Below, piece after piece: positions 18,112 through 40,000 of a stretch of DNA of 40,000 nucleotides; position 1 is the first letter of the stretch, and the number at the start of each line of letters is the position of its first letter. Under the pieces are notes generated by a model. It saw only the letters and a program-made list of their open reading frames with translations, was not told where the DNA came from and did not search any database. The position numbers and the translations under genes were made by a program. This DNA comes from Phaeobacter gallaeciensis (GTDB taxonomy: Bacteria > Pseudomonadota > Alphaproteobacteria > Rhodobacterales > Rhodobacteraceae). The stretch spans positions 1,917,501 to 1,957,500 of the forward strand of contig NZ_CP015124.1 of NCBI RefSeq assembly GCF_001678945.1, read 5' to 3'.

Positions 18112-18145
18112 ACCAATCCCGTCCGGGGCGCTCTGCGGCCCGGAC

Positions 18146-18170
18146 CGCGCCCGCCCCCACGGCGGGCGCG
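18146..18170. other. Perfect 10-bp GC hairpin between ALDH and ADH genes
   Basis: CGCGCCCGCC-CCCAC-GGCGGGCGCG forms a perfect stem-loop in the 142-base gap, flanked by further GGCCCGG/CCGGGCC-type partial repeats. There is no T-run. Apart from these hairpins I see no gene in the gap. Confidence 0.5.
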
Positions 18171-18253
18171 ATCGCGCCCACCCCGGTCGGGCCCGGTCCT
18201 TGTGTCACTCTGAATGTCCCCCGGCCTAATGGCCCTTATGAAAGGCAATATCC

Positions 18254-19399
18254 ATGTCTCTCGTTGGAAACTGGTCCTATCCGACCGCAATCAAATTCGG
18301 CGCTGGCCGGATCAAGGAACTCGCCGAGGCCTGCGCGCAGGCTGGCATCAAGAAACCGCTGCTGGTCACCGACAAGGGACTGGCGGATCTGCCCGTGACC
18401 CAGTCCACACTGGACATCATGGAGGCTGCGGGCCTTGGACGTGGCATGTTCTCCGAGGTTGATCCCAACCCCAATGAAAAGAACCTCGAAGCGGGTGTTG
18501 CCGCCTACAAGGCCGGTGGCCATGACGGCGTGATCGCCTTTGGCGGCGGCTCCGGCCTCGACCTTGGCAAAATGGTCGCCTTCATGTGCGGCCAAAGCCG
18601 CCCGGTCTGGGATTTCGAGGATATCGGCGACTGGTGGACCCGCGCCGACGCCGAGGCCATCGCGCCGATCATCGCCGTGCCGACCACGGCTGGCACCGGC
18701 TCCGAAGTGGGGCGCGCCTCGGTGATCACCGACAGTGTCACGCATCAGAAGAAGATCATCTTCCACCCGAAGGTGCTGCCCACCGTGGTGATCTGCGATC
18801 CCGAACTGACCGTGGGCATGCCGAAGTTCATCACCGCAGGCACCGGCCTTGATGCCTTTGCCCATTGCGTCGAGGCCTTCTCTTCGCCGCATTACCACCC
18901 GATGTCCCAGGGCATCGCGCTGGAAGGCATGCGTCTGGTGAAGGATTACCTGCCCCGCGCCTATGCCGACGGCACCGATATCGAAGCGCGCGCGCAGATG
19001 ATGTCCGCCGCAGCCATGGGCGCCACCGCGTTCCAGAAGGGCCTTGGCGCCATCCACGCCATGAGCCACCCGATCGGCGCGCATTTCAACACCCACCACG
19101 GCACCACCAACGCGGTCTGCATGCCTGCGGTTCTGGACTTCAACGCCCCGGTGATTGCCGACCGGTTCAACCAGGCGGCGGCCTATCTGGGTATTGAAGG
19201 CGGCTTTGACGGCTTCCGCGCCTATGTGCAGGAACTGAACGACAGCCTCGGCATCCCGCGCAAGCTGTCGGATCTGGGTGTCACCGAAGCCTCGATCCCC
19301 GAACTGGTCAAGGGCGCGATCATCGATCCGTCTTGCGGCGGCAACCCGATCGAGCTGACCGAAGAAAACCTTACAGAGCTGTTCAAAGCCGCCCTGTAA
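18254..19399 (+). CDS. Iron-containing alcohol dehydrogenase
   Basis: Type III metal-dependent alcohol dehydrogenase of 381 residues. The NAD-binding GGGSGLDLGKM is near 97, PTTAGTGSEVGRASVITD near 142, and the metal-binding region contains GLDAFAHCVEAF (Asp and His ligands) and GAIHAMSHPIGAHFNTHHG (two further His) near 262-280. AGGCAATATC precedes the ATG as a weak ribosome site. It is the last gene of the rightward cluster and is followed by an intrinsic terminator. It probably oxidises the hydroxyl of a glutamylated amino alcohol, feeding the adjacent aldehyde dehydrogenase. Confidence 0.92.
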   Translation: MSLVGNWSYPTAIKFGAGRIKELAEACAQAGIKKPLLVTDKGLADLPVTQSTLDIMEAAGLGRGMFSEVDPNPNEKNLEAGVAAYKAGGHDGVIAFGGGSGLDLGKMVAFMCGQSRPVWDFEDIGDWWTRADAEAIAPIIAVPTTAGTGSEVGRASVITDSVTHQKKIIFHPKVLPTVVICDPELTVGMPKFITAGTGLDAFAHCVEAFSSPHYHPMSQGIALEGMRLVKDYLPRAYADGTDIEARAQMMSAAAMGATAFQKGLGAIHAMSHPIGAHFNTHHGTTNAVCMPAVLDFNAPVIADRFNQAAAYLGIEGGFDGFRAYVQELNDSLGIPRKLSDLGVTEASIPELVKGAIIDPSCGGNPIELTEENLTELFKAAL

Positions 19400-19426
19400 G
19401 GACGCCGTCCATTCGCACGTTCGGCC

Positions 19427-19463
19427 AAGGCGCCTCCCTGTCTTGCAGGGGGGCGCCTTTCCG
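19427..19463 (+). terminator. Intrinsic terminator after the ADH gene
   Basis: AAGGCGCC (19427-19434) pairs with GGCGCCTT (19452-19459) and CCCTG pairs with CAGGG inside. A T-rich TTTCCGTTT follows. It lies in the gap between two convergent operons. Confidence 0.75.
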
Positions 19464-19486
19464 TTTCGGGACCCGTGCTAGTCTCG

Positions 19487-21217
19487 TCAGACGGCGGCCC
19501 TGTGTCCGGCGCCTAGATCACGCAGGATCAGTTTTTCGGGCGACTGGCCGACTGGTAGCACGGGCGTTCCACTGGCATCACCAGCCTGCCGTTCTGGCAG
19601 AGGCCGCGTGGGATCCGGAACCGGCACTGCGGACAGCAAACGGCGGGTATAGGGATGGCGGGGCGAATGCAGCACCGCATCACGCACGCCTTCCTCGACC
19701 ACCTGCCCCAGACGCATGACCATGACCCGGTCCGCAACCTGTTCGATCACCGCCATGTCGTGGCTGATGAAGAGGAAGGCCAGCCCGTCCTCGTCCTGCA
19801 GGCTTTGCAACAACTCCAGAATCTGCGCCTGAACCGAGACATCCAGCGCCGAAACGCTTTCGTCCGCGACAAGGATCTTTGGCGACAGTGACAAGGCCCG
19901 CGCGATGTTGATCCTCTGCCGTTGCCCGCCGGAAAACTCATGCGGATAGCGCTGCATCATGTCCGGCGACAGGCCGACGCGGCGAAACAGCTCTGCCGTG
20001 CGGTCACTCATCTCCGATCCACTGGACAGACCGTGAATGACCAGAGGTTCGGCCACTTGCTCGCCAACGGTCATCCGCGCATCCAGCGAGGCACCGGGGT
20101 CCTGAAACACCATCTGAATGTCCCGACGCACCGGCTTCAGCGCGCCTGGGCCCATGCCATGGGTCTGCTGCCCCAGAACCGAGATCGAGCCCTGCCATGG
20201 CACCAGCCCCAACAGGGCCTTGCCAATTGTTGATTTGCCACAGCCGGATTCCCCGACCAGCGCCAGGGTTTCTCCGGCACGCACGGTAAAGGACACCTGT
20301 TCCACCGCGTGGACCCGCGCCTGCACCCGGTTGAGGATACCGCCGCGCATATCGAACCGCACCGACAGATCGCTGACCTCCAGCACCGGGGCGCCCTTTT
20401 CCATCTCAGGGCGAGGCGGCGCGGTGCCAAGACGGGGAACCGCGGCCAGCAATTCCCGGGCATAGTCGCTTTGCGGGGCGGCAAAGAGATCGCGCACAGG
20501 GGCGCTTTCCACCTCTTGTCCGTGGCGCAGGATCACCACCCGATCCGCCATTTCCGCCACCACGCCCATATCATGGGTAATCATTAGCACAGCGGTTCCA
20601 TGATCCTTTTGCAAGGCGCGGATCAGGTCGAGGATCTCTGCCTGCACCGTCACGTCCAGCGCGGTAGTCGGCTCATCGGCGATCAGAACCTCGGGATCGC
20701 AGGCCAGCGCCATGGCGATCATTACCCGCTGCCGCATGCCGCCGGACAATTCGTGGGGGTATTGCTTCAGCCGCCGTTCCGGTTCCGTCAGTTGCACATC
20801 CTGCAGCAATTTCAGCGCCCGCGCAGGGGCTTCGCCGCGATTGCAGGCACCATGTTCCAGCAGCACCTCGGCCAACTGGTCCTGCACCGTCATCAGCGGG
20901 TTGAGCGAGGTCATCGGCTCCTGAAAGATCATCGCCACCCGCACGCTGCGGATATCGCGGTAGCCACGCGGGCCAAGGGTCGTCAGCTCCAGATCGCCGA
21001 GTTTCACCGAGCCGCCCGCGATGCGGCACATCGGCTCTGGCAACAGCCCCATGATCGCCAGCGCGGTCATGGATTTGCCGGAACCGCTTTCGCCCGCCAG
21101 ACAGAGCGTTTCGCCCCGCTTCAGATCAAAAGACAGCCCATCCAGAACCGTCTTCGCCCCCGAAGGGGTGGCGACCTGAACACTCAGGTCGCGCACTGTC
21201 AGCACGGTCTCGCTCAT
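19487..21217 (-). CDS. Dipeptide-type ABC transporter ATPase, fused DppD-DppF
   Basis: A single 576-residue protein with two complete ABC domains, corresponding to the separate DppD and DppF ATPases. Domain 1: Walker A GESGSGKS at 42-49, signature LSGGMRQRVMIAMAL, Walker B EVLIADEPTTALD. Domain 2: GESGCGKS at about 340, FSGGQRQRINIARAL, then ILVADESVSALD. Each is followed by its switch His (MITHDMGV, FISHDMAV). I start at MSETVLTVRD because its ATG overlaps the acetamidase stop (ATGA). It is the last gene of the amiC-led operon and powers the transporter encoded upstream. Confidence 0.92.
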   Translation of the reverse strand: MSETVLTVRDLSVQVATPSGAKTVLDGLSFDLKRGETLCLAGESGSGKSMTALAIMGLLPEPMCRIAGGSVKLGDLELTTLGPRGYRDIRSVRVAMIFQEPMTSLNPLMTVQDQLAEVLLEHGACNRGEAPARALKLLQDVQLTEPERRLKQYPHELSGGMRQRVMIAMALACDPEVLIADEPTTALDVTVQAEILDLIRALQKDHGTAVLMITHDMGVVAEMADRVVILRHGQEVESAPVRDLFAAPQSDYARELLAAVPRLGTAPPRPEMEKGAPVLEVSDLSVRFDMRGGILNRVQARVHAVEQVSFTVRAGETLALVGESGCGKSTIGKALLGLVPWQGSISVLGQQTHGMGPGALKPVRRDIQMVFQDPGASLDARMTVGEQVAEPLVIHGLSSGSEMSDRTAELFRRVGLSPDMMQRYPHEFSGGQRQRINIARALSLSPKILVADESVSALDVSVQAQILELLQSLQDEDGLAFLFISHDMAVIEQVADRVMVMRLGQVVEEGVRDAVLHSPRHPYTRRLLSAVPVPDPTRPLPERQAGDASGTPVLPVGQSPEKLILRDLGAGHRAAV

Positions 21218-22155
21218 TCGAACACCACGTTCGGGAAGTAGAAGCTGACCACCCAGTTCGGCATGTCGACGATTTCGGAAATCCGCAGATCGCCGCAGAC
21301 GGAACACAATAGGTAGGCATCTTCGGCCGACAAACCCTTGGTGCGGCCCAGAAGGTCGACCATGGCGCTGACAGCATCCTTCGCGGCCTGCATCATGTCA
21401 TTGCCGATGCCTGTGGTGACTTCATACCCTTTGGCATCAAGATGGCGCGTCACCGGCCCCGGCGTGGAAAAACGCGGGAAGTTCAGGGTTTCCCCCTTCA
21501 CCACGTCCAGCGTGACCTCCACATCCATCGGCGATTCAATCGCGGTGCCGCAAACCTCGCCATCGCCCTGCGCGGCGTGGGTATCCCCGATGGAGAACAG
21601 CGCCCCTTCGCATTCCACCGGCAGATACAGCGTGGTGCCCGCCGCCAGATCACGGATATCGAGATTCCCGCCCATGCGGCGCGGAGGCACCACCGAATGC
21701 AGGCCTGCCTCGGCCGGGGCCAGACCTATAGTCCCGGCAAAGGGTTTTAGCGGCACCTTGGCCAGATCGGAGAACAGCGACGGCGCCAGCGTTTCCGGAT
21801 CGTAATCCCAGACCTTGAGATAGGGATCGGTGAACTGATCGGCGAGCAGGCCAAAGCCCGGAATATTCGCGGTCCAGCCGAACCCCGAGGGGTGGAAGGC
21901 TTCGATCTTGACCTTTAACACATCGCCGGGTTTGGCCCCATCGACATAGATCGGCCCGGTAACCGGGTTGATCTTGCCAAAATCCAGATTGGGCACATCG
22001 GCGCTGGTGCTGTCCTTGTTGAACTGCCCGCCCGAACTGTCGAGACATTGGAAATGCAGGCGCGATCCGGGAGCCACCGTTTCCACGGGCGGGAGCGAAT
22101 TGTCCCACCCGTGATGGTGTGCACCGTGGATCGTGTAATCACAGTGCTTACACAT
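21214..22155 (-). CDS. Acetamidase/formamidase family protein
   Basis: Amide hydrolase of 313 residues in the FmdA/AmdA family, which releases ammonia and a short carboxylate from formamide, acetamide or similar amides. Family features: HHHGWDNSLPPVETVAPG near the N-terminus, PNLDFGKINPVTGPIYVDGA, RRMGGNLDIRDL near 160, the conserved FSIGDTHAAQGDGEVCGTAIE near 190, and LLCSVCGDLRISEIVD near the C-terminus. It starts two bases after the stop of the binding-protein gene. It is embedded in an operon controlled by an AmiC/AmiR pair and a Dpp-type importer, which strongly supports an amide or peptide-amide substrate. Confidence 0.92.
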   Translation of the reverse strand: MCKHCDYTIHGAHHHGWDNSLPPVETVAPGSRLHFQCLDSSGGQFNKDSTSADVPNLDFGKINPVTGPIYVDGAKPGDVLKVKIEAFHPSGFGWTANIPGFGLLADQFTDPYLKVWDYDPETLAPSLFSDLAKVPLKPFAGTIGLAPAEAGLHSVVPPRRMGGNLDIRDLAAGTTLYLPVECEGALFSIGDTHAAQGDGEVCGTAIESPMDVEVTLDVVKGETLNFPRFSTPGPVTRHLDAKGYEVTTGIGNDMMQAAKDAVSAMVDLLGRTKGLSAEDAYLLCSVCGDLRISEIVDMPNWVVSFYFPNVVFE

Positions 22156-22157
22156 TT

Positions 22158-23783
22158 TTATTCAGCATCCTTCGAGTAGATGTAGTCATAGTTGACCGGA
22201 ATATGGACCGGATCAACGAACAGGCTGTCGTCGCCCGCGATCTTGTCCGAGGTCAGGGTGAAGCGTTGCTCGTTGAAGACCGGCACCCAGGGGGCATCCG
22301 CCATCACATCCAGATAGATGGATTTCCACGCCTCGATCCGGGCGTCAGCGTTTTCCGCACCGGTCATGGCGTCCGCCTCGGCAGCGCGGGCGTCCAGTTC
22401 CTCGTTGCAATACCAGGACCAGTTCCAGCCGCCCTGAACCGCGCCGGCACAACCCAGGATCGGACCGTAGAAGTTCGACGGATCCGGGAAGTCGGCGATC
22501 CAGGCCATACCACCGGACCAGATCATCGGCGCCTGATCCGCCTCACCGCCTGCGGCGATCACATTGGCCTGTGCCAGGCTGCGGATCTCGGCGGTGACAC
22601 CGATTTCCTTCAGGTCCTGCTGGATCGCCTGTGCAATCCGCGGGTTGGGATCGACGTTCATCACGTAAAGCTCGGTGGTGAACCCATCGGCAAAACCAGC
22701 CTCGGCCAGCATTTCCTTGGCGGCGGCGGGATCAAAGGCATAGCCTTCGTAATCCTCGGCGTAGCCCGGCATCGACGGCGGCAGCGGCTGGTTTGCCGGA
22801 ACCGCACGGCCGTTGATCAGCTTGACGATACGGTCCTTGTTGATCGCCATGTTGACGGCCTTGCGCACGGCGACATTGTCGAACGGCGCCATCTGGGTGT
22901 TCAGTGTGATATAACCGGTGTGCAGCTGGCCACCTTCGATAACGTTATCCTTCTGTGCCGGATCGTTCATCACCTGCAGGAACTGCGCGGGTGGGATGCC
23001 GTCGCCGGGCACATCCGCCTGCCCCTGTTGCAGACGCAGCAGGGCAACGGTGGGCTCCAGTCCGATTTCAAAGGTCACCTGATCCAGCTTGGGCAGGTTG
23101 GCGCGGTGGTAATCGGCGAACCGTTCGAACACCACGCGCTGGCCCGGCGCCCATTCCGCCAGTTTGAAGGCGCCCGAGCCGACCGGCTGGCGACCAAAAT
23201 CTTCGCCAGCCGCCTCGACCGCTTCCTTGGGCACGATGGAGGCAAAGTTCAGCGCCATCACATGGCCAAAGGTCGCGTCGGGACGGGACAGGGTGATCTC
23301 GATGGTCTTGTCGTCGATCACCTTGACGCCCGAAAGCCCCTCGCCTTCGCCCGCGTTCCAGCTGTCAAAACCCGCGATCATGCCAAAGAAGCCTGCGCCA
23401 GGAGAACGGGTTTCGGGGTTGGTCACACGCTCCAGCGAGTATTTCACATCCTCGGCGACAATCTCGCGGCCGTTGTGGAACTTGATCCCGTCCTTCAGGG
23501 AGAAGGTATGGGTCAGACCGTCCTCGGAAATGGCATAGTCGGACGCCAGTTCGTTGCGCAGCGCCGTTGTGCCCGGCTCATAGCCCATCAGCCCGTCGAA
23601 CAGCGATTTGATCATCGACCAGTTCTGCCAGTCATAGCCGATGGCGGGGTCCAGCGTCGCGACATCGTCCTTGTAGGTGACGGTCATGGTGCCACCCATC
23701 GGGGCATCTGCATTCACCTCTGCGGCTGCCATATGGCCGCACAAAGCCAGTCCGGCGACACCGGTTAAAAGAAATTTCTTCAT
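22158..23783 (-). CDS. ABC transporter substrate-binding protein, DppA/OppA family
   Basis: Periplasmic solute-binding protein of 541 residues (family 5). The signal peptide MKKFLLTGVAGLALCGHMAA precedes a mature chain starting near AEVNADAPMGG. Features are TMTVTYKDDVATLDPAIGYD, the YEPGTTALRNELASDYAIS segment, the family pattern FKLKDG-like FSLKDGIKFHNGREIVAEDV, and AVRKAVNMAINKDRIV. Family 5 proteins bind peptides, nickel chelates, opines or other solutes; here the operon suggests an amide. It lies downstream of its two permease genes. Confidence 0.92.
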   Translation of the reverse strand: MKKFLLTGVAGLALCGHMAAAEVNADAPMGGTMTVTYKDDVATLDPAIGYDWQNWSMIKSLFDGLMGYEPGTTALRNELASDYAISEDGLTHTFSLKDGIKFHNGREIVAEDVKYSLERVTNPETRSPGAGFFGMIAGFDSWNAGEGEGLSGVKVIDDKTIEITLSRPDATFGHVMALNFASIVPKEAVEAAGEDFGRQPVGSGAFKLAEWAPGQRVVFERFADYHRANLPKLDQVTFEIGLEPTVALLRLQQGQADVPGDGIPPAQFLQVMNDPAQKDNVIEGGQLHTGYITLNTQMAPFDNVAVRKAVNMAINKDRIVKLINGRAVPANQPLPPSMPGYAEDYEGYAFDPAAAKEMLAEAGFADGFTTELYVMNVDPNPRIAQAIQQDLKEIGVTAEIRSLAQANVIAAGGEADQAPMIWSGGMAWIADFPDPSNFYGPILGCAGAVQGGWNWSWYCNEELDARAAEADAMTGAENADARIEAWKSIYLDVMADAPWVPVFNEQRFTLTSDKIAGDDSLFVDPVHIPVNYDYIYSKDAE

Positions 23784-23813
23784 GATTCCAGTCCTCTGTT
23801 GGTTTTACCGTTT

Positions 23814-24734
23814 CTATTTGGTCTTGATACGGGGATCGATTGCCGGCGCCACGAGGTCCGCCAGAAGGTTGCCCAGAACGATCGCGGTGGCCGAAACCAT
23901 GGTCACACCCATGATGACCGGTATGTCCACGCGCTGGATCGCCTGCCAGGCCAGCTGGCCGATCCCGGGCCAGCCAAAGACGCTTTCCACAACCACGATG
24001 CCGGACATGAACAGCCCGATGTCGATGCCGATCATCGCGATGATGGGAAGAATGGAATTGGGAATGACGTGTCGCAGGATGATACGGGCCTTGCCCAGCC
24101 CCTTGGCCCGCGCGGTGCGGACAAAATCCTGGCCCAGCACGTCGATCATGCTGGAACGCATCATTCGGCTGTACCAGCCCGCACCGAGAAACCCGAGCGT
24201 CACCGCAGGCAGCACCACATGGCCAAAGGTGCCGTAGCCGCCAATCGGGAACCAGCCCAGCTTCACCGCAAAGACATAGAGCAGCAGAATGCCGATGACG
24301 AATTGCGGTGCGGAGATGCTGACAAAGCTAAAGATCATCAGCCCGTGGTCTGCGGGCTTGTTGCGGCGCAGGGCCGCGACGATACCGATGGTCAGGCCGA
24401 ACACCAGCTCGGTCACGATGGCCGCAACCATCAGCAACAGGGAGGCAGGCAGGCGGGCAGCGATCAGCTCGGAGACTTCGGCGCGTTGCAGATAGCTGCG
24501 CCCCATGTCGCCCTGAAACAACGCCGTCAGGTAGTTCCAGTACTGCACGACAAAGGGATCGTTCAACCCCAGCTGATCGCGGATGTTCTGCACCGTTTCG
24601 GCGGTGGCCGACCGCCCGGCGATCTGCCGCGCCGGATCGGCCGGCACCAGATACAGCAGGATAAATGTCACCAGCGTGATCCCCAGAAGGATCAGCGCGC
24701 TCTCCATCAGGCGGCGGACAAGATAGGCCTGCAT
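23814..24734 (-). CDS. ABC transporter permease, DppB type
   Basis: Inner-membrane permease of 306 residues with six hydrophobic segments. The N-terminus MQAYLVRRLMESALILLGIT is typical of DppB/OppB. The first periplasmic loop contains DPARQIAG and DQLGLNDPFVVQYWNYL. The coupling loop VRTARAKGLGKARIILRHV is near residue 185. Its ATG shares one base with the dppC-type stop (TGATG). Confidence 0.93.
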   Translation of the reverse strand: MQAYLVRRLMESALILLGITLVTFILLYLVPADPARQIAGRSATAETVQNIRDQLGLNDPFVVQYWNYLTALFQGDMGRSYLQRAEVSELIAARLPASLLLMVAAIVTELVFGLTIGIVAALRRNKPADHGLMIFSFVSISAPQFVIGILLLYVFAVKLGWFPIGGYGTFGHVVLPAVTLGFLGAGWYSRMMRSSMIDVLGQDFVRTARAKGLGKARIILRHVIPNSILPIIAMIGIDIGLFMSGIVVVESVFGWPGIGQLAWQAIQRVDIPVIMGVTMVSATAIVLGNLLADLVAPAIDPRIKTK

Positions 24735-25639
24735 CAGTGGCGTCCTTTCAGGGTCGGATCAAGAATGTCGCGCAGGGCATCGCCCACCAGATTAAAGGCC
24801 AGCGCCAGCAACAGGATCGCAATGCCGGGGAAGAAGACCAGCCAGGGGGCGGTGGTGAAATAGGTCTGGTTTTCGAAGATGATATTTCCCCAACTTGGCA
24901 TCGGGGGCTGCACTCCCACGCCAAGGAAGGACAGCGTCGCCTCCAGCAAGACCGTTGTCGAAATTCCCAGGGTGCCAAAGACAACGATGGACGACAAAAG
25001 ATGCGGCAGCAGGTGTTTGAACAGGATGCGCAGGTGGCCAGCGCCCAGCGCCCGCTGCACGGTGATGAAATCACGCTCGGCCAGCGACCGGGTCTCGGTA
25101 TAGATCACCCGTGCCATCTGTACCCAGTTCACCATCGCGATGACCAGCGCCACGATCAGCAGCGAGGGCTGAAAGATCGCCGCCAGAACAATCGCCAACA
25201 GCAGCGCCGGAAAGGCCATCATCAGATCGGTAAAGCGCATCAGCACCGCGCCGATCCAGCCGCCGAAATAGCCGGCCGTAATGCCAACCCCGGCGCCCAG
25301 CAGGATCGCGATCCCATTGGCAAGGATACCGATGATTAGTGAGGTGCGCGTCCCCAGAATAAGCCGCGAAGCCAGATCCCGCCCCAAAAGATCCGTGCCC
25401 AGCGGGAAATCCGCTCCCGGCGGCAGAGGCGCCCCGGCCAGACTTAGCCCGTCGAAGCTCTGCTCAAACGGGTCATGCGGCATGATCCACGGCGCCAGCA
25501 GCGCGGCGCCCACCATCAGGATGATGATCACCATCCCAAAGGCCGAGCGCGGCCGGGTCATCAGCTCATAAATCACACGTCGGCTGCGCGCGCCGCGGCC
25601 TGCTGTCATCTGACCGTCTGTGGCTGCTGTCATCGTCAT
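24734..25639 (-). CDS. ABC transporter permease, DppC type
   Basis: Inner-membrane permease of 301 residues. It shows the DppC features HDPFEQSFDGLSLAGAPLPP and FPLGTDLLGRDLASRLILGT after the first membrane segment, the coupling loop VQRALGAGHLRILFKHLLPH, and the C-terminal WLVFFPGIAILLLALAFNLV. Its ATG overlaps the amiR stop by four bases (ATGA). Gene order amiC-amiR-dppC-dppB-dppA inverts the common dppABC order. Confidence 0.92.
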   Translation of the reverse strand: MTMTAATDGQMTAGRGARSRRVIYELMTRPRSAFGMVIIILMVGAALLAPWIMPHDPFEQSFDGLSLAGAPLPPGADFPLGTDLLGRDLASRLILGTRTSLIIGILANGIAILLGAGVGITAGYFGGWIGAVLMRFTDLMMAFPALLLAIVLAAIFQPSLLIVALVIAMVNWVQMARVIYTETRSLAERDFITVQRALGAGHLRILFKHLLPHLLSSIVVFGTLGISTTVLLEATLSFLGVGVQPPMPSWGNIIFENQTYFTTAPWLVFFPGIAILLLALAFNLVGDALRDILDPTLKGRH

Positions 25640-26208
25640 GCCTGACCCCGCATGGCCGGGCGCGCCAGAAACCGGACGGCAGCATCTTCCAAGGCGACGC
25701 GCTCTACCATGGCAAAGGCACGCAGTTTCTTCAGGGCCGTCGCCTCATCGACGCCCTCAGAGCGCATGATGACAAGGACCGCCTGCAACAACTCCAGCCG
25801 CATCGAGGCGCGCCGGTTGCTTTCAGCCTCACGGCGGCGGGTTTCCATGCGTTCCTTGAACCGAGCAAAGCCCAGCACCAGCGCCGAGTAGATATTGGCG
25901 GTGGCATTGACCGGCAGATAGGCGTCCAGACCCTGCCGCACGGCCCATTCCAGGCGTCCCGGCGTTTCCGAGCCGATCAGCCCAAGGATCGGCATAGGCG
26001 CAGATTGCGGCGACCAGGGGAATTGCCCGTCCTCGGCCCGGTCAAGGTCCAGAACCAGCAGGTCAGCGCGGACATCCGCCACTTCCAGCGCGGGCCAGCG
26101 CCCTTCGGCCTTGATGCCAAGCGTGCCCAGACGTCGAACCAGTTGATCCCGCATTTCAGCGCTGGGATGCAGGACAAGAGCGTATTTTCCGGCGAAGCTA
26201 TAGGTCAT
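25636..26208 (-). CDS. amiR: ANTAR-domain antitermination regulator, AmiR-like
   Basis: Cytoplasmic RNA-binding regulator of 190 residues. The N-terminal two thirds are a receiver-like domain (YALVLHPSAEMRDQLVRRL, DLLVLDLDRAED) without a clear phosphorylation site. A helical linker (FKERMETRRREAESNRR) leads to an ANTAR domain at about 130-185, visible in ELLQAVLVIMRSEGVDE and AFAMVERVALEDAAVRFL. AmiR proteins bind leader RNA and prevent transcription termination when their partner AmiC releases them. The start overlaps the amiC stop by four bases, and a terminator-bearing leader precedes the pair, so the classical mechanism fits well. Confidence 0.88.
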   Translation of the reverse strand: MTYSFAGKYALVLHPSAEMRDQLVRRLGTLGIKAEGRWPALEVADVRADLLVLDLDRAEDGQFPWSPQSAPMPILGLIGSETPGRLEWAVRQGLDAYLPVNATANIYSALVLGFARFKERMETRRREAESNRRASMRLELLQAVLVIMRSEGVDEATALKKLRAFAMVERVALEDAAVRFLARPAMRGQA

Positions 26209-27308
26209 TTTACGATCCTCAAACTGGGCGTCTGGAGCGGCGGGGCGGATACAGGGGGAACGCAGGTCAGATAGGGGTCCGCAGCGACGGGGCCCTCGGC
26301 AGAAGACAGTAGATGAAACTGTGCGTTCTCGGCCTGCGCGATATGCGGTGTCAGCGATGCGTGTCGGGTGATGGGGTCGATCTGCACCGGCCCCAGAACC
26401 GTTTCATGGCGCGCATCGCAGGCCGCATGGAACACCGCCCTTGGCGCGGTGGTCCCGGTTTTCGCGACGGTTTCGGCCAGAATGCGAACGCTGGCATAGG
26501 AGGTGGCAAAGACGCAGGAACAGCGCCCGTTCGGCGATTTCTCCCGGGCACGGCGCACGAAACCCTCGGGGCCAAGCGGTTCGAAATAGGTCCCGGCCGA
26601 GATGATCCCGTCGCCATATTGGCCCAGCACATCAAGATCCGCTTCGGATTGGTTGCAGGACAGGATTGTCGGCCGCTGCCCGGTGGGCAATCCGCGCAGG
26701 AACGCCTCATTCGACGGACCGATCAGCGAGTTGACGACAACATCCGGCTGCTCAGAGATGATCTCGGAGAGGGCCAGATCGGAGTCCACATCGCCAAGTG
26801 GTACGAAACGCTCGCCGACGATCTCAACCCCGGCGGCGCTCAGCCGTTCGCGGGCCAGACGCAGCGTTTCCCAGCCCCAGACATAGTTGGAACCAAGCAG
26901 GTAGGCACGGCGCGTGCCTTGGCTCAGCACCCGGTCCAGCAGCGGGATCATATGATGGTTCGGCGCGCCGCCCATGTAGACGACGTGATCGTTGCTTTCG
27001 AAGCCCTCATAGGGGCACGGGTACCACAGCATCGCGCCATAACGCTCCAGCACCGGAATCATGTCCTTGCGGCTCCAGGAGGTGATGGCGCCCACCACGT
27101 GTGACACACCACCAGCAAGGATATCGCGGGTCATCGCCTCATAGGCCTCGGGGCGGCCCGCCGGATCACAGGTCACGGGCGCAATTCGGGCAATGCCCTC
27201 GCGCTCCAGATCGGCGATGGCCAGCTCGGCCCCCGCCAGTCCGGCCTGTCCCAGCGCGGCGTAGGGTCCAGAGGTCGAGAAGACCAGACCAAGATCGAAT
27301 TCCTGCAT
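26205..27308 (-). CDS. amiC: AmiC-like cytoplasmic amide sensor (periplasmic-binding fold)
   Basis: Ligand sensor of 367 residues in the Leu/amide-binding (family 5 peripla_BP) fold. It has no signal peptide: it starts directly with MQEFDLGLVFSTSGPYAALG, as in AmiC, which stays in the cytoplasm and sequesters AmiR. Family segments include GGVSHVVGAITSWSRKDMIP, LWYPCPYEGFESND, YLLGSNYVWGWETLRLARE and SCNQSEADLDVLGQYGDG. The ATG at 27308 is preceded by a GTGGGGTACT stretch. An upstream in-frame extension would read through the leader terminator and is rejected. It is the first gene of the amide operon. Confidence 0.88.
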   Translation of the reverse strand: MQEFDLGLVFSTSGPYAALGQAGLAGAELAIADLEREGIARIAPVTCDPAGRPEAYEAMTRDILAGGVSHVVGAITSWSRKDMIPVLERYGAMLWYPCPYEGFESNDHVVYMGGAPNHHMIPLLDRVLSQGTRRAYLLGSNYVWGWETLRLARERLSAAGVEIVGERFVPLGDVDSDLALSEIISEQPDVVVNSLIGPSNEAFLRGLPTGQRPTILSCNQSEADLDVLGQYGDGIISAGTYFEPLGPEGFVRRAREKSPNGRCSCVFATSYASVRILAETVAKTGTTAPRAVFHAACDARHETVLGPVQIDPITRHASLTPHIAQAENAQFHLLSSAEGPVAADPYLTCVPPVSAPPLQTPSLRIVK

Positions 27309-27323
27309 AGTACCCCACAAACT

Positions 27324-27361
27324 AAAAAGCCCCGCCACCCTGCAAGAGGGTGATCGGGGCT
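27324..27361 (-). terminator. Intrinsic terminator in the amiC leader (antitermination target)
   Basis: On the minus strand AGCCCCG pairs with CGGGGCT (27355-27361 with 27328-27334) and CACCCT with AGGGTG inside. The stem is followed at once by TTTTT (27328-27324), only 15 bases before the amiC ATG. A strong terminator placed between promoter and first gene only makes sense if it is regulated. The ANTAR protein AmiR encoded in the same operon is the expected regulator. Confidence 0.85.
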
Positions 27362-27451
27362 CAATTGCCAACGGCGATCAGGTCGCCATGTAGGCCCAAT
27401 AAGGCTTAACAGGACCGGGAAGTCAAACTCTTCGTGGCCGTTTTGTGACGG
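27351..27451 (-). promoter_or_regulatory. Leader RNA with candidate ANTAR-type hairpins and an antiterminator
   Basis: Upstream of the terminator two small hairpins can form: CCGT-CACAAA-ACGG (27438-27451, six-base loop) and GGCGA-CCTGA-TCGCC (27373-27387). TGATCG of the second (27375-27380) is also exactly complementary to CGATCA inside the terminator's left arm (27351-27356). That pairing would exclude both the second hairpin and the full terminator. The published ANTAR signature (two hexaloop hairpins with conserved A and G) is not matched exactly, so this is a candidate. No clear promoter was identified in 27452-27583. Confidence 0.45.
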
Positions 27452-27583
27452 TTCAGACGCGGGCGCCGATTTTTTAGGCAGCCGCGACGGCGGCCCTTTG
27501 GCGCCTGTTTCTATTGCACCCATGGCGTCGCAGACTGCCGTCCCGCCTGACCCATGATACCTTTGGCCGCACCGGAGTTGCGG

Positions 27584-27991
27584 CTAGCCAAACAGCGACA
27601 GCAGGATCCCCCCGACACAAAGAACGTTGGAAAAGATCAGCAGCGCAACCGCCAGAGAGCCAAGGTCCTTTGCGTGTTTTGCCTGCACCGACCATTCGGG
27701 CGATATCCGGTCGGTCAGCACCTCGATCGCGGTATTGAGCGCCTCGACCGCCAGCACGAGTGCAAAGAGAATGGCAAAGGCCGCAAGCTGTAGAGCAGAG
27801 GCCCCAAGAACCAGCAGCAGGAACCCCGTCCCAGCCCCCGCGACAAGCTCCAGCCGGGCGGCGGTTTCCCCCATCAACCGCTGCAATCCGCCAAGAGAAT
27901 ACCGCGCAGCGGCAATGACATGCGCAACGCCGGTCACGGCAGGCGGGATCTCTTGCGGAGTTGCGCCCTGCGATTGATCACGTACCGTCAT
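27584..27991 (-). CDS. dgkA: Diacylglycerol kinase, prokaryotic DgkA type
   Basis: Integral membrane kinase of 135 residues that phosphorylates diacylglycerol to phosphatidic acid. It shows three hydrophobic segments and the family motif EALNTAIEVLTDRISPEW with the catalytic Glu/Asn/Glu cluster, followed by AKDLGSLAVALLIF. The start overlaps the stop of the phosphoethanolamine transferase gene (ATGA). Coupling is logical: each transfer of phosphoethanolamine from phosphatidylethanolamine leaves diacylglycerol, which DgkA can recycle. The N-terminus is about 15 residues longer than E. coli DgkA. Confidence 0.92.
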   Translation of the reverse strand: MTVRDQSQGATPQEIPPAVTGVAHVIAAARYSLGGLQRLMGETAARLELVAGAGTGFLLLVLGASALQLAAFAILFALVLAVEALNTAIEVLTDRISPEWSVQAKHAKDLGSLAVALLIFSNVLCVGGILLSLFG

Positions 27992-29658
27992 GTTGCGGGC
28001 CTCGCGATACGGCAGCGCGACGCCAGATCCAGCTCCGGCTGCCGGACCTCGGTGCGGATGTCGAGGAGGCCCAGGACCGTATGGAACAGATTGTCCTGGC
28101 TGACAGGCTGATCGGTCATATCCTTCAGACAGGCGCCATCAAGATGCATCGCTTCGCGATAGCTTTCCGGCAGCCACATCAGGAACGGCACCCGAGTCTG
28201 CGCCTCCGGCGCCATGAACATCGGCGCGGCGTGGAGGTATAGCCCGCCCTCCCCTAGGGATTCACCGTGATCCGAGATATACATCAACGCCGGTAGAGCA
28301 TGGTCCTGCGCGTTCAGCATTGAAATCGCCTTGGCCAGGATGTGGTCGGTATAGGCGATGGTATTGTCATAGGCGTTCACGATCTCTTCCGGCGTGCAAT
28401 AATCGAACTCGGCTGTTCTGCAATCAGGCGTGAAGCGGGCAAACGCCTCGGGGTAGCGCCTGTAGTAGGCGGGCCCGTGGCTGCCGATCATATGCAGCAC
28501 CAGCACGGTGTCTTCCTTGATCGCTCCGATCTGCTGCGCCAGCGCCCCAAGAAGCGCCGCATCGCTGCACTCCCCATCGGCGCAGGCCGCCGGATCAAGC
28601 GTAACATCGACCTGCCGCGCCCCGGTGCGCCGGGCGATCCGCTGATCCCCGGTGTTGTTGTCGATCCACACAGGCTGCACCCCGGCATGATCCAGCACAT
28701 CCAAAAGGTTCTCCTGCCCCATGAAGGCGCGATGGCTGTAGTCACTCCGGCCCAGCGCGGAAAACATGCAGGGCAGCGACACCGCCGTCGATGTTCCACA
28801 GGACGAGGTTTCGCTGAAATTAAGGAGATCAAGCCCCGCCAGCTGCGGCGTGGTGTTCCGCGCATACCCGTTCAGCGCGAAATTCTGCGCGCGGGCGGTC
28901 TCTCCGGCGAAGATCACCAGCAGAACCGGTTTTTTAGCCGCCAGCAGGTCTTCCCCCTTGGCTGCATCCTGTCCCAGCGGTGCGACCTCTGTGTTGCTGG
29001 CCCGGATTTCCATCTTGGCGTAGCGGGCGATGGCGCCAATGGTGGCGCCGGGCTGGTAGCTGCCCATCAACTCGTGATGCTCTCGGATGACCGAGGCATT
29101 TGCCTTGAGGTTGACGAACAGGAAACCGAACGTCATCGCGAAGCTTGCGACAGCAGTCAGCGGCAGCTTCCACAGGATATGCCGGAACTTCGGATAGGTG
29201 ATGCGCGGCCAGAACAGCAAGGCAGCGGGCAGCACGCCTGTCAGCCCCATGTAACGCAGATAGGGCAGCGTGATCAGTTGCCGGGATTCCGCATAGGTAG
29301 TGTTCATCACGTTCTGGATCATCAGCTTGTCGATCATGATGCCCAGGTGCCCCTGATACCATGAGGCCGCCGCCGCCAGAAGAATGAGAATGGCAGCCAC
29401 CGGGCGCTGCACGCGCGGCCAGCTGAACGGGCTGAGGGTAAAGAACGTCAGCATCCAGACCGCAGCCCCGAACAGCACCACATTCATCGGCGCGCCCTCG
29501 AACAGCGTCGAGAGGTGCCTCCAGAACGCCGCGTTGAAGGCCACCAGCATATAAGTGGCGACCAGTATGTTGAGCATCGTTGGCGACAGCTCCGGTCGCC
29601 TGACCTGTGGCAGGCGGGCGTTCAGCCTTCTCACGGCTTCGGCAAATCGTCCATGCAA
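27988..29658 (-). CDS. eptA: Phosphoethanolamine transferase, EptA/lipid A type
   Basis: Inner-membrane enzyme of about 556 residues that transfers phosphoethanolamine from phosphatidylethanolamine to lipid A or a related acceptor. The N-terminal 180 residues contain about five membrane segments (LNILVATYMLVAFNAAFW onward). The periplasmic alkaline-phosphatase-fold domain has the metal-binding Glu in VIFAGETARAQNF, the catalytic Thr in SSCGTSTAVSLPCMF and DHGESLGEGG. I choose a TTG at 29658 because GGAGG lies eight bases upstream and the length then fits the family. The frame stays open to 30054, but that part has no membrane or family character. It is transcribed with dgkA. Confidence 0.88.
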   Translation of the reverse strand: MHGRFAEAVRRLNARLPQVRRPELSPTMLNILVATYMLVAFNAAFWRHLSTLFEGAPMNVVLFGAAVWMLTFFTLSPFSWPRVQRPVAAILILLAAAASWYQGHLGIMIDKLMIQNVMNTTYAESRQLITLPYLRYMGLTGVLPAALLFWPRITYPKFRHILWKLPLTAVASFAMTFGFLFVNLKANASVIREHHELMGSYQPGATIGAIARYAKMEIRASNTEVAPLGQDAAKGEDLLAAKKPVLLVIFAGETARAQNFALNGYARNTTPQLAGLDLLNFSETSSCGTSTAVSLPCMFSALGRSDYSHRAFMGQENLLDVLDHAGVQPVWIDNNTGDQRIARRTGARQVDVTLDPAACADGECSDAALLGALAQQIGAIKEDTVLVLHMIGSHGPAYYRRYPEAFARFTPDCRTAEFDYCTPEEIVNAYDNTIAYTDHILAKAISMLNAQDHALPALMYISDHGESLGEGGLYLHAAPMFMAPEAQTRVPFLMWLPESYREAMHLDGACLKDMTDQPVSQDNLFHTVLGLLDIRTEVRQPELDLASRCRIARPAT

Positions 29659-29945
29659 GGGGCATACCTCCGGTAAAATATATCTGGTCTGGGCCGTCTT
29701 CAGCTGCTGTCGCCTGGGACGCTTCGTTGCCTCGATCACCGGAAATCTCCGGCCATTGCGGCTGGCGCGGCGCGGACGAAAGAACTGATGACAAGCCTTT
29801 ACCTGCGCCACCGGATGCCGCAGCAAGCTTTCAGTAACCTTACATCTCTCCGGGTCGGCCGAAACGCGCCGGGCCAGGAACGTCATGCTTCTGTCAATTA
29901 GCTGCGGTACCTCTGGCGCCACGCGCAGCAGCACGGGCGAGCACG
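29659..29945. other. Divergent intergenic region between eptA and plcP-like gene
   Basis: These 287 bases separate the leftward eptA-dgkA pair from the rightward plcP-btaA-btaB genes. Apart from the eptA ribosome site (GGAGG on the minus strand near 29667-29671) and a candidate Pho box close to the right end, I see no gene, RNA or clear repeat. Confidence 0.5.
29880..29897 (+). promoter_or_regulatory. Candidate Pho box upstream of plcP-btaAB
   Basis: Two half-sites, ACGTCAT and CTGTCAA, are spaced exactly 11 bases apart (29880 and 29891). The known PhoB consensus is CTGTCAT-N4-CTGTCAT; matches are 5/7 and 6/7. The site ends 48 bases before the plcP ATG. Since betaine-lipid synthesis is induced by phosphate starvation through PhoB in related bacteria, the position makes sense. 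No convincing -10 was seen. Confidence 0.5.
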
Positions 29946-30538
29946 ATGAAGTACCGCACCCTCTTTCTGTCTGACATCCATCTGGGTACCCCGGGACGCA
30001 TTTCGGCGGCATCGAGGTGGTGCAGACGGCAGATTTCATCGCCGCCGACAACAAACGCTATCTGGTGACCCATGGCGACCAGTTCGATTCCGTGGTGGTC
30101 AATGCAAAATGGTTGGCCCACCTTGGAGACCGGGCCTACGATTTCATGCTCTGGCTCAACACCCGCATCAACCGGCTTCGGCATCTTTGGGGCGGGCAAT
30201 ACTGGTCCTTGTCCAAATGGGCCAAGCATCAGGTCAAACAGGCGGTCAATTTCATCAGCGAATATGAAAACGTCCTGACTGCCGAGGCCCGGCGCGGTGG
30301 TTATGACGGGGTTATCTGCGGTCATATCCACAGCGCCGCCCTCCGCGATATTGGCGAGATTTCCTACGTCAACACCGGCGATTGGGTCGAGAGCTGCACT
30401 GCCGTGGCGGAACAGGAAGACGGGCAACTGGTGCTGATCGACTGGACCCGCTCGGCCCGCCGCGCCCATCACCGCAGCCGCCGGGCGCGGCGCAAGGACA
30501 AACAGTCCGAAAAAGACAGGCAACTTGAAAATGTATGA
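29946..30538 (+). pseudogene. plcP: plcP-like metallophosphoesterase (phospholipase C), internal deletion and frameshift
   Basis: Calcineurin-type metallophosphoesterase related to LpxH and to PlcP, which cleaves phospholipids to diacylglycerol in phosphate-starved alphaproteobacteria. The first 17 residues (MKYRTLFLSDIHLGTPG, including the DxH metal motif) are intact. Immediately afterwards, near 29991-29996, the sequence jumps into another frame at THFGGIEVVQTADF, which normally lies about 80-90 residues downstream. The segment with the GDxxD and GNHD/E metal motifs is missing. The original frame stops at 30066-30068 after 40 codons. The C-terminal part is preserved to its natural stop (THGDQFD, CGHIHSA, NTGDWVESCTA). 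No active enzyme can result. btaA follows after 12 bases. Confidence 0.85.
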
Positions 30539-30550
30539 GAGGTGCCCCCG

Positions 30551-31780
30551 ATGAGTACGACCGCACAGGCGCGGCTGGATGCTGCCGTTTTGCAGGATGG
30601 CGATGCCGCAACCGGACGGCTGGAGCATCTGTTCTCGCGGCTGTTCCTGGGCCTTGTCTATCCGCAGATCTGGGAAGATCCGGTTGTCGATATGGCAGCC
30701 TTGAATATCAAGCCGGGAGACAATCTGGTCTGTATCGCGTCCGGCAGCTGCAACCTAATGTCCTATCTCACTGCAGGCGCCGCGTCGGTTACCGCCGTCG
30801 ATCTATCGCCTGCCCATGTGGCGCTGGGGCAGCTGAAACTGACCGCAGCGCGCTGCCTGCCGGATCATGCGGCGTTCTACCAGTTCTTTGCCCGAGCCGA
30901 TCTGGCCAGCAACGTAGCGCTCTATGACCGCTACATCCGCCCCAATCTTGACCCGCACACGCGGGATTTCTGGGACGCGCGGCAACCGATCCGCCGCCGG
31001 ATCTCCGTGTTTCAAAACCGGTTTTACCGGCACGGTCTGCTGGGGCGTTTCCTCGGCGCCGTGCATCTGGTGGCCCGCCTTGGCCGCGTAGACTTTGCGC
31101 CGCTTCTGGCAGCGCGGACGTTAGAGGACCAGCAGGCGTTTTTCGATGAAGAGATCGCGCCGCTGTTCGACATGTGGCTGGTGCGCAAACTGGCCGGGTT
31201 CCGCGCCGCCCTGTTCGGCCTTGGCATCCCGCCGGCGCAGTATGACAAGCTCGCCGCTGACGGTGGTGGCGACGTCCTGCCAGTACTGCGCGAACGGGTG
31301 CGCAAGCTGATGTGCGATTTCCCGATCCGGGAGAATTATTTCGCCTGGCAGGCCTTTGCCCGGCAATACGACCCCGCCCCGGATGGATCACTGCCCCCCT
31401 ACCTGAGCCGGGAGAACTTCGAGGCTCTGCGGCAGAGTGCAGACAACGGACGGATCGTGAACCGCTCCCTCACCGATCTGCTGGAAGCCGAACCGGACGG
31501 GTGCAAGGACGGCTACGTGCTGCTGGATGCGCAGGACTGGATGAATGATACGCAGTTGAATGCGCTCTGGGCGCAGATCACCCGCACGGCAAGACTGGGC
31601 GCACGGGTGATTTTCCGCACCGGCGGCAGCGCTAATATCCTGCCCGGCCGGGTCAGGCCCGATCTTCTGAACCAATGGGCCTATGACGCCGAAGCCTCGG
31701 CCAAAGGCACGGCAGAGGATCGTTCTGCCATCTACGGCGCCTTCCACCTCTACCGCTACAAAGGGCCTTCCCATGTTTGA
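30551..31780 (+). CDS. btaA: BtaA, SAM:diacylglycerol 3-amino-3-carboxypropyltransferase (DUF3419)
   Basis: Enzyme of 409 residues making diacylglycerylhomoserine, the first step of the betaine lipid DGTS. It uses diacylglycerol and S-adenosylmethionine. Family features: FSRLFLGLVYPQIWEDPVVD near residue 28, the nucleotide-binding-like LVCIASGSCNLMSYL, VTAVDLSPAHVALGQLK, and DAQDWMNDTQLNALW then RVIFRTGG near 330-360. I choose the ATG at 30551 with AGAGG eight bases upstream over an in-frame GTG three codons earlier. It is intact although the plcP-like gene in front of it, a likely source of diacylglycerol, is broken. Confidence 0.93.
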   Translation: MSTTAQARLDAAVLQDGDAATGRLEHLFSRLFLGLVYPQIWEDPVVDMAALNIKPGDNLVCIASGSCNLMSYLTAGAASVTAVDLSPAHVALGQLKLTAARCLPDHAAFYQFFARADLASNVALYDRYIRPNLDPHTRDFWDARQPIRRRISVFQNRFYRHGLLGRFLGAVHLVARLGRVDFAPLLAARTLEDQQAFFDEEIAPLFDMWLVRKLAGFRAALFGLGIPPAQYDKLAADGGGDVLPVLRERVRKLMCDFPIRENYFAWQAFARQYDPAPDGSLPPYLSRENFEALRQSADNGRIVNRSLTDLLEAEPDGCKDGYVLLDAQDWMNDTQLNALWAQITRTARLGARVIFRTGGSANILPGRVRPDLLNQWAYDAEASAKGTAEDRSAIYGAFHLYRYKGPSHV

Positions 31781-32420
31781 TTCAGCGCCCGATACCCACG
31801 CTGATCTGATGGATCAGACCTACCGCCATCAACGGATGATTTATGATCTGACCCGCAAATACTACCTGTTCGGACGCGACCGTTTGATTGCAGACCTCGC
31901 CCCCAAGGAAGGTGCACATATCCTGGAGGTGGCCTGCGGCACCGGGCGCAACCTGCATCTGGCGGCCCGCAGATACCCGCATTGTGCCTTTTACGGGTTG
32001 GATATTTCGTCCCAGATGCTGCGTTCGGCACAGGCGAAATTGAAAGACCGGGCACAGCTGGCTCAGGCAGACGCCTGCGATTTTGACGGTGCCACGCTGT
32101 TTCAGCGCCCCCGGTTCGACCGGATCTTTGTCTCCTACGGGATTTCGATGATCCCGGACTGGAAGACCGCCCTGCGCATGGCGGCCGCGCATCTGAGGCC
32201 CGGCGGTGAACTGCATGTGGTGGATTTCTCGGATCAGTCCGGATGGCCCGACTGGTTCGAAGCATCCCTGCGCCGATGGCTGGCGAAATTTCACGTCAGT
32301 CCGCGGCTGAACCTTAAAACCACCCTGCACAGGATTGCCGCAGAGACCGGCGGCACGGCAGAGCATCGCCAGCTTTACCGCGGCTATGCGCAGTATGGCG
32401 TGCTGCGCAGGCCGCGTTGA
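31773..32420 (+). CDS. btaB: BtaB, SAM-dependent N-methyltransferase for betaine lipid
   Basis: Class I methyltransferase of 215 residues that trimethylates the BtaA product to give DGTS. The SAM-binding motif is HILEVACGTGRNLHLAARRY at about 48-67, followed by YGLDISSQMLRSAQAKL and the post-I acidic region ADACDFD. The N-terminus HADLMDQTYRHQRMIYDLTR is typical of BtaB. Its ATG lies eight bases inside the end of btaA, so translation is coupled. The C-terminal third (AKFHVSPRLNLKTTLHR, YRGYAQYGVLRRP) also fits the family. Confidence 0.92.
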   Translation: MFDSAPDTHADLMDQTYRHQRMIYDLTRKYYLFGRDRLIADLAPKEGAHILEVACGTGRNLHLAARRYPHCAFYGLDISSQMLRSAQAKLKDRAQLAQADACDFDGATLFQRPRFDRIFVSYGISMIPDWKTALRMAAAHLRPGGELHVVDFSDQSGWPDWFEASLRRWLAKFHVSPRLNLKTTLHRIAAETGGTAEHRQLYRGYAQYGVLRRPR

Positions 32421-35964: not shown

Positions 35965-36693
35965 ATAGAAAGATCACAAGTGCTGGACGCGATGAGCCAG
36001 CTGAAGGTCTACGGCATGAAGGCCGCCTACGATGAGACCATCGCCACGGCGGTGAAGCGCCAGCACGAACCGCAACAGATCATCGGCGATCTGCTGAACG
36101 CCGAGATCAGTGAGAAGCAGGCGCGCTCAATCAAATACCAGATGAAGATGGCCAAGCTGCCCCTGACGAAAGAAGTCGATGAGTTGAGCTTCGAAGGCAC
36201 GCCGGTCAACGAGGTGCTGGTCCGTGATCTGGCGACCGGAGAGTTTCTGGCGCAGCAACGCAATGTCGTGCTGATCGGCGGCACCGGGACCGGTAAGTCC
36301 CACCTGGCCGTCAGCATCGCCCGGTCGTGCATCCGCCGCGGCAGACGGGAGTGCTTCTTCAACGTTGTGGACCTGGTGAACAAACTCGATACGGAAGCCC
36401 GCGCCGATCGACAGGTACGCACGGCAGATCTGCTGTGCCCCATCGACTTCCTGATCCTCGACGAGCTTGGCTATCTCCCCTTCGTACAAACCGGTGGTCA
36501 GCTATTGTTCCATCTCATCAGCCGCCTCTTCGAGCGCACATCGATCATCGTGACGACCAACCTCGACTTCGGCGAATGGCCCTCGGTCTTCGGCGGCGCC
36601 AAAATGACCACTGCACTGCTCGACCACCTTACCCACCATTGCGACATCGTCGAAACAGGCAACGCGAGCTGGTGCTTCAAAACCCGAGAATAG
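35965..36693 (+). CDS. istB: IstB-like ATP-binding helper protein of IS21, ATG lost
   Basis: AAA+ ATPase partner of IstA, about 240 residues. Walker A is [20 protein letters not shown], Walker B is [12 protein letters not shown], and the C-terminal [20 protein letters not shown] and [13 protein letters not shown] are typical. The family start MERSQVLD is here encoded with ATA at 35965 in place of ATG, seven bases after AGGAG. Translation could use that ATA poorly or a GTG at 35980 five codons later. The rest of the frame is open. Without IstA it has no obvious use. Confidence 0.85.
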
Positions 36694-36824: not shown

Positions 36825-37145
<321 letters not shown>

Positions 37146-37177
37146 GAGATTGTTGGTTATGATCGTTAGAGAGATTT

Positions 37178-37345: not shown

Positions 37346-37387
37346 GCGGCAGGCAGGATATTTGCGAAGCAAATGCCCGTTGCCGCA
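37346..37387 (-). other. Second hairpin in the 23S-5S spacer
   Basis: Nested inverted repeats GCGGCA/TGCCGC and ATTTGC-GAA-GCAAAT lie between the spacer hairpin and the 23S end. They are likely part of the precursor processing structure. Confidence 0.5.
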
Positions 37388-37498
37388 GGCCCGTTATGTC
37401 ACGGGTCGTTTTCCAAAAGCGGAAGGTTTTTAGATCAACGTTTTGTCCAAGTTTCGTTTTGCTTTTTGGTGTTTACGAGACTGTCTGTTACTGGAACA

Positions 37499-40000
<2,502 letters not shown>

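Follow-up and report, generated by a model that had tools for sequence, protein, structure and literature searches.

This report concerns a seven-gene amiC-amiR operon and the leader through which AmiR very probably controls it by antitermination. Both lie on the minus strand of a 40,000-nucleotide (nt) stretch of Phaeobacter gallaeciensis DNA (contig NZ_CP015124.1, positions 1,917,501 to 1,957,500), hereafter the window, to which all coordinates refer. Read from the sequence, the gene order is amiC-amiR-dppC-dppB-dppA-hydrolase-dppDF, with neighbouring genes overlapping or 2–30 base pairs (bp) apart. The first gene, amiC (26205–27308), encodes a 367-residue amide-sensor homologue of the Peripla_BP_5 family that matches the AmiC structure 1pea (E 7e-37), and the second, amiR (25636–26208), encodes a 190-residue protein composed of a receiver-like domain, a long helix and an ANTAR domain. 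These are followed by two permease genes of the dppC type (24734–25639) and dppB type (23814–24734), both matching BPD_transp_1 in Pfam, a dppA-type gene for a substrate-binding protein (22158–23783; SBP_bac_5), the gene for a 313-residue, short-type hydrolase of the acetamidase/formamidase family (21214–22155; FmdA_AmdA; match to 2f4l, E 1.8e-43), and dppDF (19487–21217), which encodes a fused two-domain ATP-binding cassette (ABC) ATPase with two ABC_tran stretches.

An earlier, sequence-only reading of this DNA had described a seven-gene operon with a peptide-type ABC importer, a fused DppD-DppF ATPase and an FmdA-family hydrolase, and the gene order and the Pfam matches agree with it. Its naming of the hydrolase as an acetamidase/formamidase stands at the level of the family (208.3 bits against FmdA_AmdA, PF03069, gathering cut-off 27) and not at that of the specific enzyme, the score against the NCBIfam formamidase model FmdA (NF045496) being 133.6 bits against an equivalog cut-off of 500. 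In the same way, the DppA-type protein scores 216.1 bits against the NCBIfam DppA model NF043070 (equivalog cut-off 1005), and the sequence supports assignment of the importer only to the broad peptide/nickel/opine class. A longer open reading frame for amiC, starting at TTG, runs into the terminator described below, and the start is most likely the ATG at 27308.

A strong intrinsic terminator, placed by the sequence-only reading 15 bases 5′ of amiC, is borne out by the sequence and by folding. The hairpin, GAGCCCCGATCACCCT-CTTGC-AGGGTGGCGGGGCTT (27327–27362, minus strand), has a free energy of −26.2 kcal/mol when folded alone and runs into a U5 tract (27324–27328), from which the amiC ATG is 15 nt away. 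The surrounding 216-nt stretch (27520–27305) folds with z = −3.56 relative to 200 dinucleotide shuffles. Because a simple terminator scan of 17000–28500 is near chance (10 found versus 7.8 expected, standard deviation (sd) 3.0), the case for the terminator rests on its conservation. In a set of 107 related loci, 96 have amiC followed by an amiR detected with tblastn, so that amiR is present in every counted locus by construction; the remaining 11, one without amiC and ten without a detected amiR (including L103 and L107, later read by eye), were set aside. The next gene is dppC in 79 of the 96 (Dpp-type), a second AmiC/UrtA-like gene in 12 (urea-type) and the hydrolase in one, and is undecided in four. 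A terminator was called by script directly before amiC in 76 of the 79 Dpp-type loci, the exceptions being L014 and L032, where the T runs are weak, and L002, a truncated copy of the locus in the window; it was also called in 11/12 urea-type loci, in the one locus with the hydrolase after amiR and in 2/4 undecided ones. The RNAalifold consensus of one leader alignment (A1) contains the terminator only, with double changes at 7 of its 11 pairs. In this and a second MAFFT alignment (A2) the upstream hairpin P1 is off by one column in some rows.

The 5′ arm of the terminator shares GA-GCC with a mini-hairpin, P2, of sequence GGC[AATTGA]GCC (27358–27369, minus strand; −2.8 kcal/mol alone), which is the candidate binding site of AmiR. 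P2 overlaps the 5′ arm of the terminator, and the two structures are therefore mutually exclusive, as in ANTAR antitermination. P2 was defined as GGC (or AGC), six nucleotides and GCC (or GCT), with the 3′ arm inside the 5′ arm of the terminator, the terminator anchoring the choice. The pattern alone is not rare (seven occurrences in the window versus 4.2 expected). With this definition the script found P2 in 74 of the 76 Dpp-type leaders with a called terminator, and it was located by eye in L048, L084, L014 and L032. After removal of L002 and three duplicates, 75 distinct Dpp-type leaders remain, and all 75 have P2 at the 5′ base of their terminator (71 by script, four by eye). The first loop base, A1 of the ANTAR RNA motif, is adenine in 75/75; the second is A in 51, T in 20, G in three and C in one. 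In 69 of the 75 leaders A1 has no pairing partner when the terminator is formed, yet it is invariant, and it is a cleaner sign of P2 than the G at loop position 5 discussed below.

Upstream of P2, a promoter is predicted from a candidate −35 box, TTGACT (27421–27426), and, after a 17-nt spacer, a candidate −10 box, CTTATT (27398–27403), a weak match 28 nt before P2. The hairpin P1, GGCGA-CCTGA-TCGCC (27373–27387; −5.9 kcal/mol), lies close to where the transcript is predicted to begin, on the same minus strand, with a loop of 5 nt and a linker of 3 nt to P2. Among the 75 leaders, a T[TG]GAC box is found 54–63 nt before P2 in 38, 40–50 nt before it in 10 and at another distance in 11, and is absent from 16. 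These boxes bear on another reading, in which the hairpin acts only as an ordinary terminator, protecting amiC from transcription arriving from the side of dgkA, the operon being started below the terminator or by constant read-through. The gene dgkA, which ends at 27584, is indeed upstream of amiC in the same orientation, intergenic terminators are ordinary, and a simple promoter scan, itself near chance, listed no sigma-70-like site in the leader. However, U tract and ATG are only 15 nt apart, the terminator is kept before amiC in relatives with different upstream genes, the boxes recur at characteristic distances from P2 in 48/75 leaders, and a plain terminator has no need of A1. We consider this reading improbable.

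AmiR scores 30.5 bits against AmiR_N in Pfam (cut-off 27). Its AlphaFold2 model (mean predicted local distance difference test score 92.8, from 35 alignment rows) has helices at residues 100–135, 137–151, 155–169 and 173–182, and its best matches in the PDB are AmiR of Pseudomonas aeruginosa (1qo0) and EutV. We are confident that the predicted structure, i.e., a receiver-like domain, a long helix and a three-helix ANTAR bundle, represents an AmiR/EutV-like fold. The 50 PDB entries listed for the model include neither NasR nor Rv1626, which carries no weight. Among the positions corresponding to the RNA-contact residues of EutV, as named in the parts of PMC8934654 drawn on here and read in 78 Dpp-type and 12 urea-type AmiR proteins, Arg142, Arg168 and Met172 are kept in the Dpp type (in 76, 77 and 78 of 78), the Lys of the AKG motif mostly is not (see below), and positions 173–174 are mostly V/A and E/W. 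AmiC is homologous to the known sensor and its gene is adjacent to amiR; as no signal peptide was seen by eye in the window protein, it is probably cytoplasmic. All aligned AmiC proteins, 76/76 Dpp-type and 12/12 urea-type, carry the motif NY[VI]W[GA]W where P. aeruginosa AmiC has DYIYPR, a stretch that we take to line the amide pocket. In a quick AmiC tree, Dpp-type and urea-type regulators form separate groups with an SH-aLRT (approximate likelihood ratio test) support of 99, the Klebsiella and P. aeruginosa rows forming long branches. The sequence-only reading had noted that the operon encodes an ANTAR protein and an amide-sensor homologue, and had proposed AmiC-AmiR antitermination control. 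The first point agrees with the AmiR_N score, the model and the 1pea match. As to the second, the position of P2 over the terminator in all 75 distinct Dpp-type leaders, the AmiR/EutV-like fold and the promoter-like boxes at recurring distances all argue for AmiR-dependent antitermination, which we hold, with high confidence, to be the best explanation of the leader.

Several observations weigh against this explanation. The G at loop position 4 of the ANTAR RNA motif, G4, is present in only 2 of the 75 Dpp-type leaders, the window's not among them (position 4 is C in 46, A in 15, T in 12 and G in two), and position 5 is instead mostly G (G 59, A 10, T 6); G4 is important for EutV and NasR according to the parts of PMC3369931 used here. 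The GGC/GCC stem of P2 hardly varies and can therefore not be proven by covariation. Against the ANTAR model the window AmiR scores 24.3 bits, just below the Pfam cut-off of 27.3; of ten relatives scanned, eight score above this cut-off and two below it. The Lys of the AKG motif is replaced by Val in 69/78 Dpp-type AmiR proteins, including that of the window, and by Ile in another 3/78 (Val or Ile in 12/12 urea-type proteins). By our reading of the alignment this position corresponds to K347 of NasR, where the K347R substitution lowers binding about tenfold (PMC7496416, in the part drawn on). P1 was not found in 29/75 leaders by a rule requiring at least 4 bp, at most −3 kcal/mol and a position within 6 nt of P2, which would miss the three-pair stems possible in ANTAR hairpins. 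The promoter, too, is a prediction with a weak −10 box that the automatic sigma-70 scan does not list.

The G5 loop and the loss of the Lys important in NasR could also speak for an attenuator that works without AmiR, e.g., a small-molecule riboswitch or translation coupling, with AmiR acting elsewhere or otherwise, and P1 of the window does hold a short frame, ATG-GCG-ACC-TGA, of three codons and a stop. Such an element would have to be accommodated in a leader that is short, in which P1 is widely variable, and for which the Rfam scan gave no match at gathering scores (best E 0.23, chance level and under the cut-off); moreover, neither the RNA model nor the G5-loop pattern described below pointed to a further P2-terminator site in the genome. 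An attenuator of this kind is, in our view, highly improbable, and AmiR-dependent antitermination is retained.

P1-like hairpins, with loops of 4–9 nt, occur in 46/75 leaders, compared with 10.9 (sd 2.7, maximum 19) in 200 shuffles. Their presence follows the distance of the T[TG]GAC box from P2, P1 being found in 35/38 leaders with the far spacing (54–63 nt) and in 1/10 with the near one (40–50 nt) (Fisher 1.2e-6). The 29 leaders without a found P1 comprise nine with the near spacing, three with the far spacing, six with a box at another distance and 11 without a box; in the nine near-spaced leaders P1 would be missing because the predicted transcript starts close to P2, leaving no room for it. 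On the AmiC tree the promoter spacing shows just two independent changes, too few for a test, and the link between P1 and promoter spacing is suggestive only.

The shift from G4 to G5 is confined to part of the sampled systems. In the 11 urea-type leaders counted (eight by script, three by eye; L011 uncounted), G4 is present in nine, and position 1 is A in six and G in five. NasT leaders of the same bacterial family served as a control: a NasT match is found in 24/61 genomes, and P2 of the form AGC[ANNGNN]GCT lies over a terminator in 18 of these 24 loci, with G4 in 18/18. P2 over a terminator was not seen in the other six, some of which end early, and short matches of three to seven pairs at other terminator-like places were discarded. 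Read by eye, a Klebsiella Dpp-type record has AGGU[AAUGAA]GCCU, with A1 and G4, and an Agrobacterium record has GAGC[AGGGUA]GCUC, also with G4. The change is therefore a feature of the sampled alphaproteobacterial Dpp-type branch, and not of all Dpp-type units.

Position 5 is often paired in the terminator, and part of its conservation may thus stem from the terminator itself. Where it is paired in that conformation (50/75 leaders), it is G in 42 and A in eight, with no other base; where it is unpaired (25/75), it is G in 17, T in six and A in two. It is consequently conceivable that AmiR acts as proposed while G5 is kept merely by pairing near the U tract, without any shifted hexaloop rule, which would also suit the G4 seen in the Klebsiella Dpp-type leader. 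That G persists in 17 of the 25 leaders with an unpaired position 5 argues the other way, and we regard this variant of the explanation as rather unlikely. A link between the loss of G4 and AmiR residue 173 was considered and found unsupported after allowing for relatedness (five independent pairs, none in the expected direction). We note that five leaders (L069, L070, L071, L082 and L100) have loops with neither G4 nor G5 (AATATC, AGTTTC and AGTATG) and a promoter-like box 86–87 nt before P2; L069–L071 and L100 are from rhizobia.

As a tentative proposal, for which the odds are somewhat against us, a large alphaproteobacterial branch of AmiR may read A1+G5 rather than A1+G4 hexaloops and, in at least two lineages whose promoter would have shifted by about 14 nt in the direction of P2, may use a single hairpin without P1. 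If true, an A1/G5 rule would insulate AmiR from NasT where both occur. The leaders, which with their odd hexaloop and the cases without a found P1 go beyond the sequence-only reading, provide natural variants for two questions about ANTAR proteins, namely which loop base is read and whether one hexaloop is sufficient; that one may be enough has been proposed from the EutV-RNA structure (PMC8934654, as far as drawn on).

Within its own genome, the control is most likely local to this operon, because only the amiC leader overlaps a terminator among the 19 sites with the pattern GGCAWNNGNGCCYYG, and because an RNA model built from 34 leaders (the window's included) gives no second full match. The model matches this leader with E 1.7e-15, and its runner-up in the same genome is a partial match at 0.02. 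One other GGCAWNNGNGCCYYG site has a hairpin with a T run, which does not abut the site. No second P2-terminator target was thus found with the model and with the pattern, which by its form detects G5 loops only.

The following sequence of events would account for the arrangement. Transcription would start about 20 nt before P2, and RNA polymerase would meet the terminator before amiC and mostly stop. By analogy with the P. aeruginosa system, AmiC would restrain AmiR as long as AmiC has no small, amide-like nitrogen compound bound; the freed AmiR dimer would then bind the P2 hexaloop, with P1 assisting where present, and hold P2 closed. Closed P2 would remove GCC from the 5′ arm of the terminator and permit read-through into amiC, amiR and the genes of the importer, which probably takes up an amide-like compound, and of the hydrolase, which probably cleaves it to ammonium. 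The switch would feed back on itself, since its terminator also precedes the genes of its own regulators, amiC and amiR. The autoregulation suggested by the sequence-only reading hence fits the locus, and it is not special to it, amiC and amiR of P. aeruginosa also lying behind their own terminator.

The gene set recurs well beyond the window. A scan of genome contigs with AmiC gave 40 loci, 39 of which have the seven genes in the same order, the fortieth ending, at a contig end, inside dppA; in the window's family, 44/295 genomes have an AmiC match at E <= 1e-40. Plasmid records with an AmiC match at E <= 1e-30 number 910 (717 of them Klebsiella), and those with a hydrolase match at E <= 1e-60 number 885 (730 Klebsiella). 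Six plasmid records inspected gene by gene, five alphaproteobacterial and one Klebsiella, all have the window order; in the fifth alphaproteobacterial record amiR is unannotated and was located by tblastn. In the Klebsiella variicola plasmid record (L103), the unit is flanked by an ISKpn26 copy on one side and by fragments of the creatininase family on the other, and a ptxD/phn phosphite set is close by. Such a gene set has already been published for a Klebsiella plasmid: the parts of PMC13209695 drawn on describe an operon that combines amiC and amiR with a gene for an acetamidase and with four ABC genes, in a strain with acetamidase activity. The number of genes, the transporter class and the plasmid matches suggest that its hydrolase is of the FmdA_AmdA type. 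Those parts do not treat the leader, and no leader analysis of this operon was found in the literature searched, subscription journals and preprints lying outside its scope. The leader offers a sequence handle on a probably nitrogen-scavenging operon, relatives of whose AmiC and hydrolase are each present on more than 700 Klebsiella plasmid records.

Upstream of the unit, 27584–32420 holds dgkA, for diacylglycerol kinase, together with genes for a phosphoethanolamine transferase of the EptA/EptB type, a DUF3419 protein and a methyltransferase; the latter two resemble BtaA/BtaB of betaine-lipid synthesis, and the region may be a lipid-remodelling cluster. Facing the end of the operon, on the plus strand (16729–19399), are genes for an aldehyde dehydrogenase and an iron-containing alcohol dehydrogenase. 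An IstB-type ATPase, as in IS21-family elements (35980–36693), adjoins the end of a ribosomal RNA operon (tRNA-Met, 5S and 23S; 37069–40000, minus strand).

Among known systems, AmiC-AmiR of P. aeruginosa likewise has a binding-protein-like sensor beside an ANTAR protein and a terminator in the operon leader, and its AmiR (1qo0) and AmiC (1pea) are the structures matched by the window proteins. Its effectors are amiE and a small channel, whereas the window has a Dpp-type importer and an FmdA_AmdA hydrolase, with amiC first, NY[VI]W[GA]W in place of DYIYPR in AmiC, and a P2 loop without G4. The amiC-amiR-urtABCDE units (L106 and L107, with an FmdA_AmdA protein or a nitrilase) place the same regulators before another importer, a urea-type transporter, and differ in their predominant G4. 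The Klebsiella operon, in the one record inspected (L103), matches the window in all seven genes and in their order, and the hydrolases in the Klebsiella rows listed are 70.5–70.8% identical to that of the window; its AmiC, in contrast, is distant (36–37%), and its leader loop, read by eye, is canonical A1/G4. NasS-NasT, in the same bacterial family, is also a sensor and ANTAR pair with P2 over a terminator, but its P2 has G4 in all 18 loci in which it was found. In the window's own genome, a terminator in the nrtA leader downstream of nasTS (L108:9647–9924) is overlapped by a canonical P2, GAGC[AAGGCC]GCTC. According to the parts of PMC3369931 and PMC8934654 used here, dual hexaloops with A1/G4 and an overlap of P2 with the terminator are established features of the EutV system that have been described for NasR and AmiR as well, and EutV induction requires both hairpins with A1/G4, the eut linkers being 5–12 nt. 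The Dpp-type leaders share with EutV the ANTAR fold and a second mini-hairpin that overlaps the terminator, and depart from it in having mostly G5, a linker of 3 nt in the window, and no P1 found in 29/75. Judged by predicted protein fold and by P2-terminator overlap, the unit would thus belong with the AmiC-AmiR systems, from whose RNA motif it departs at G4.
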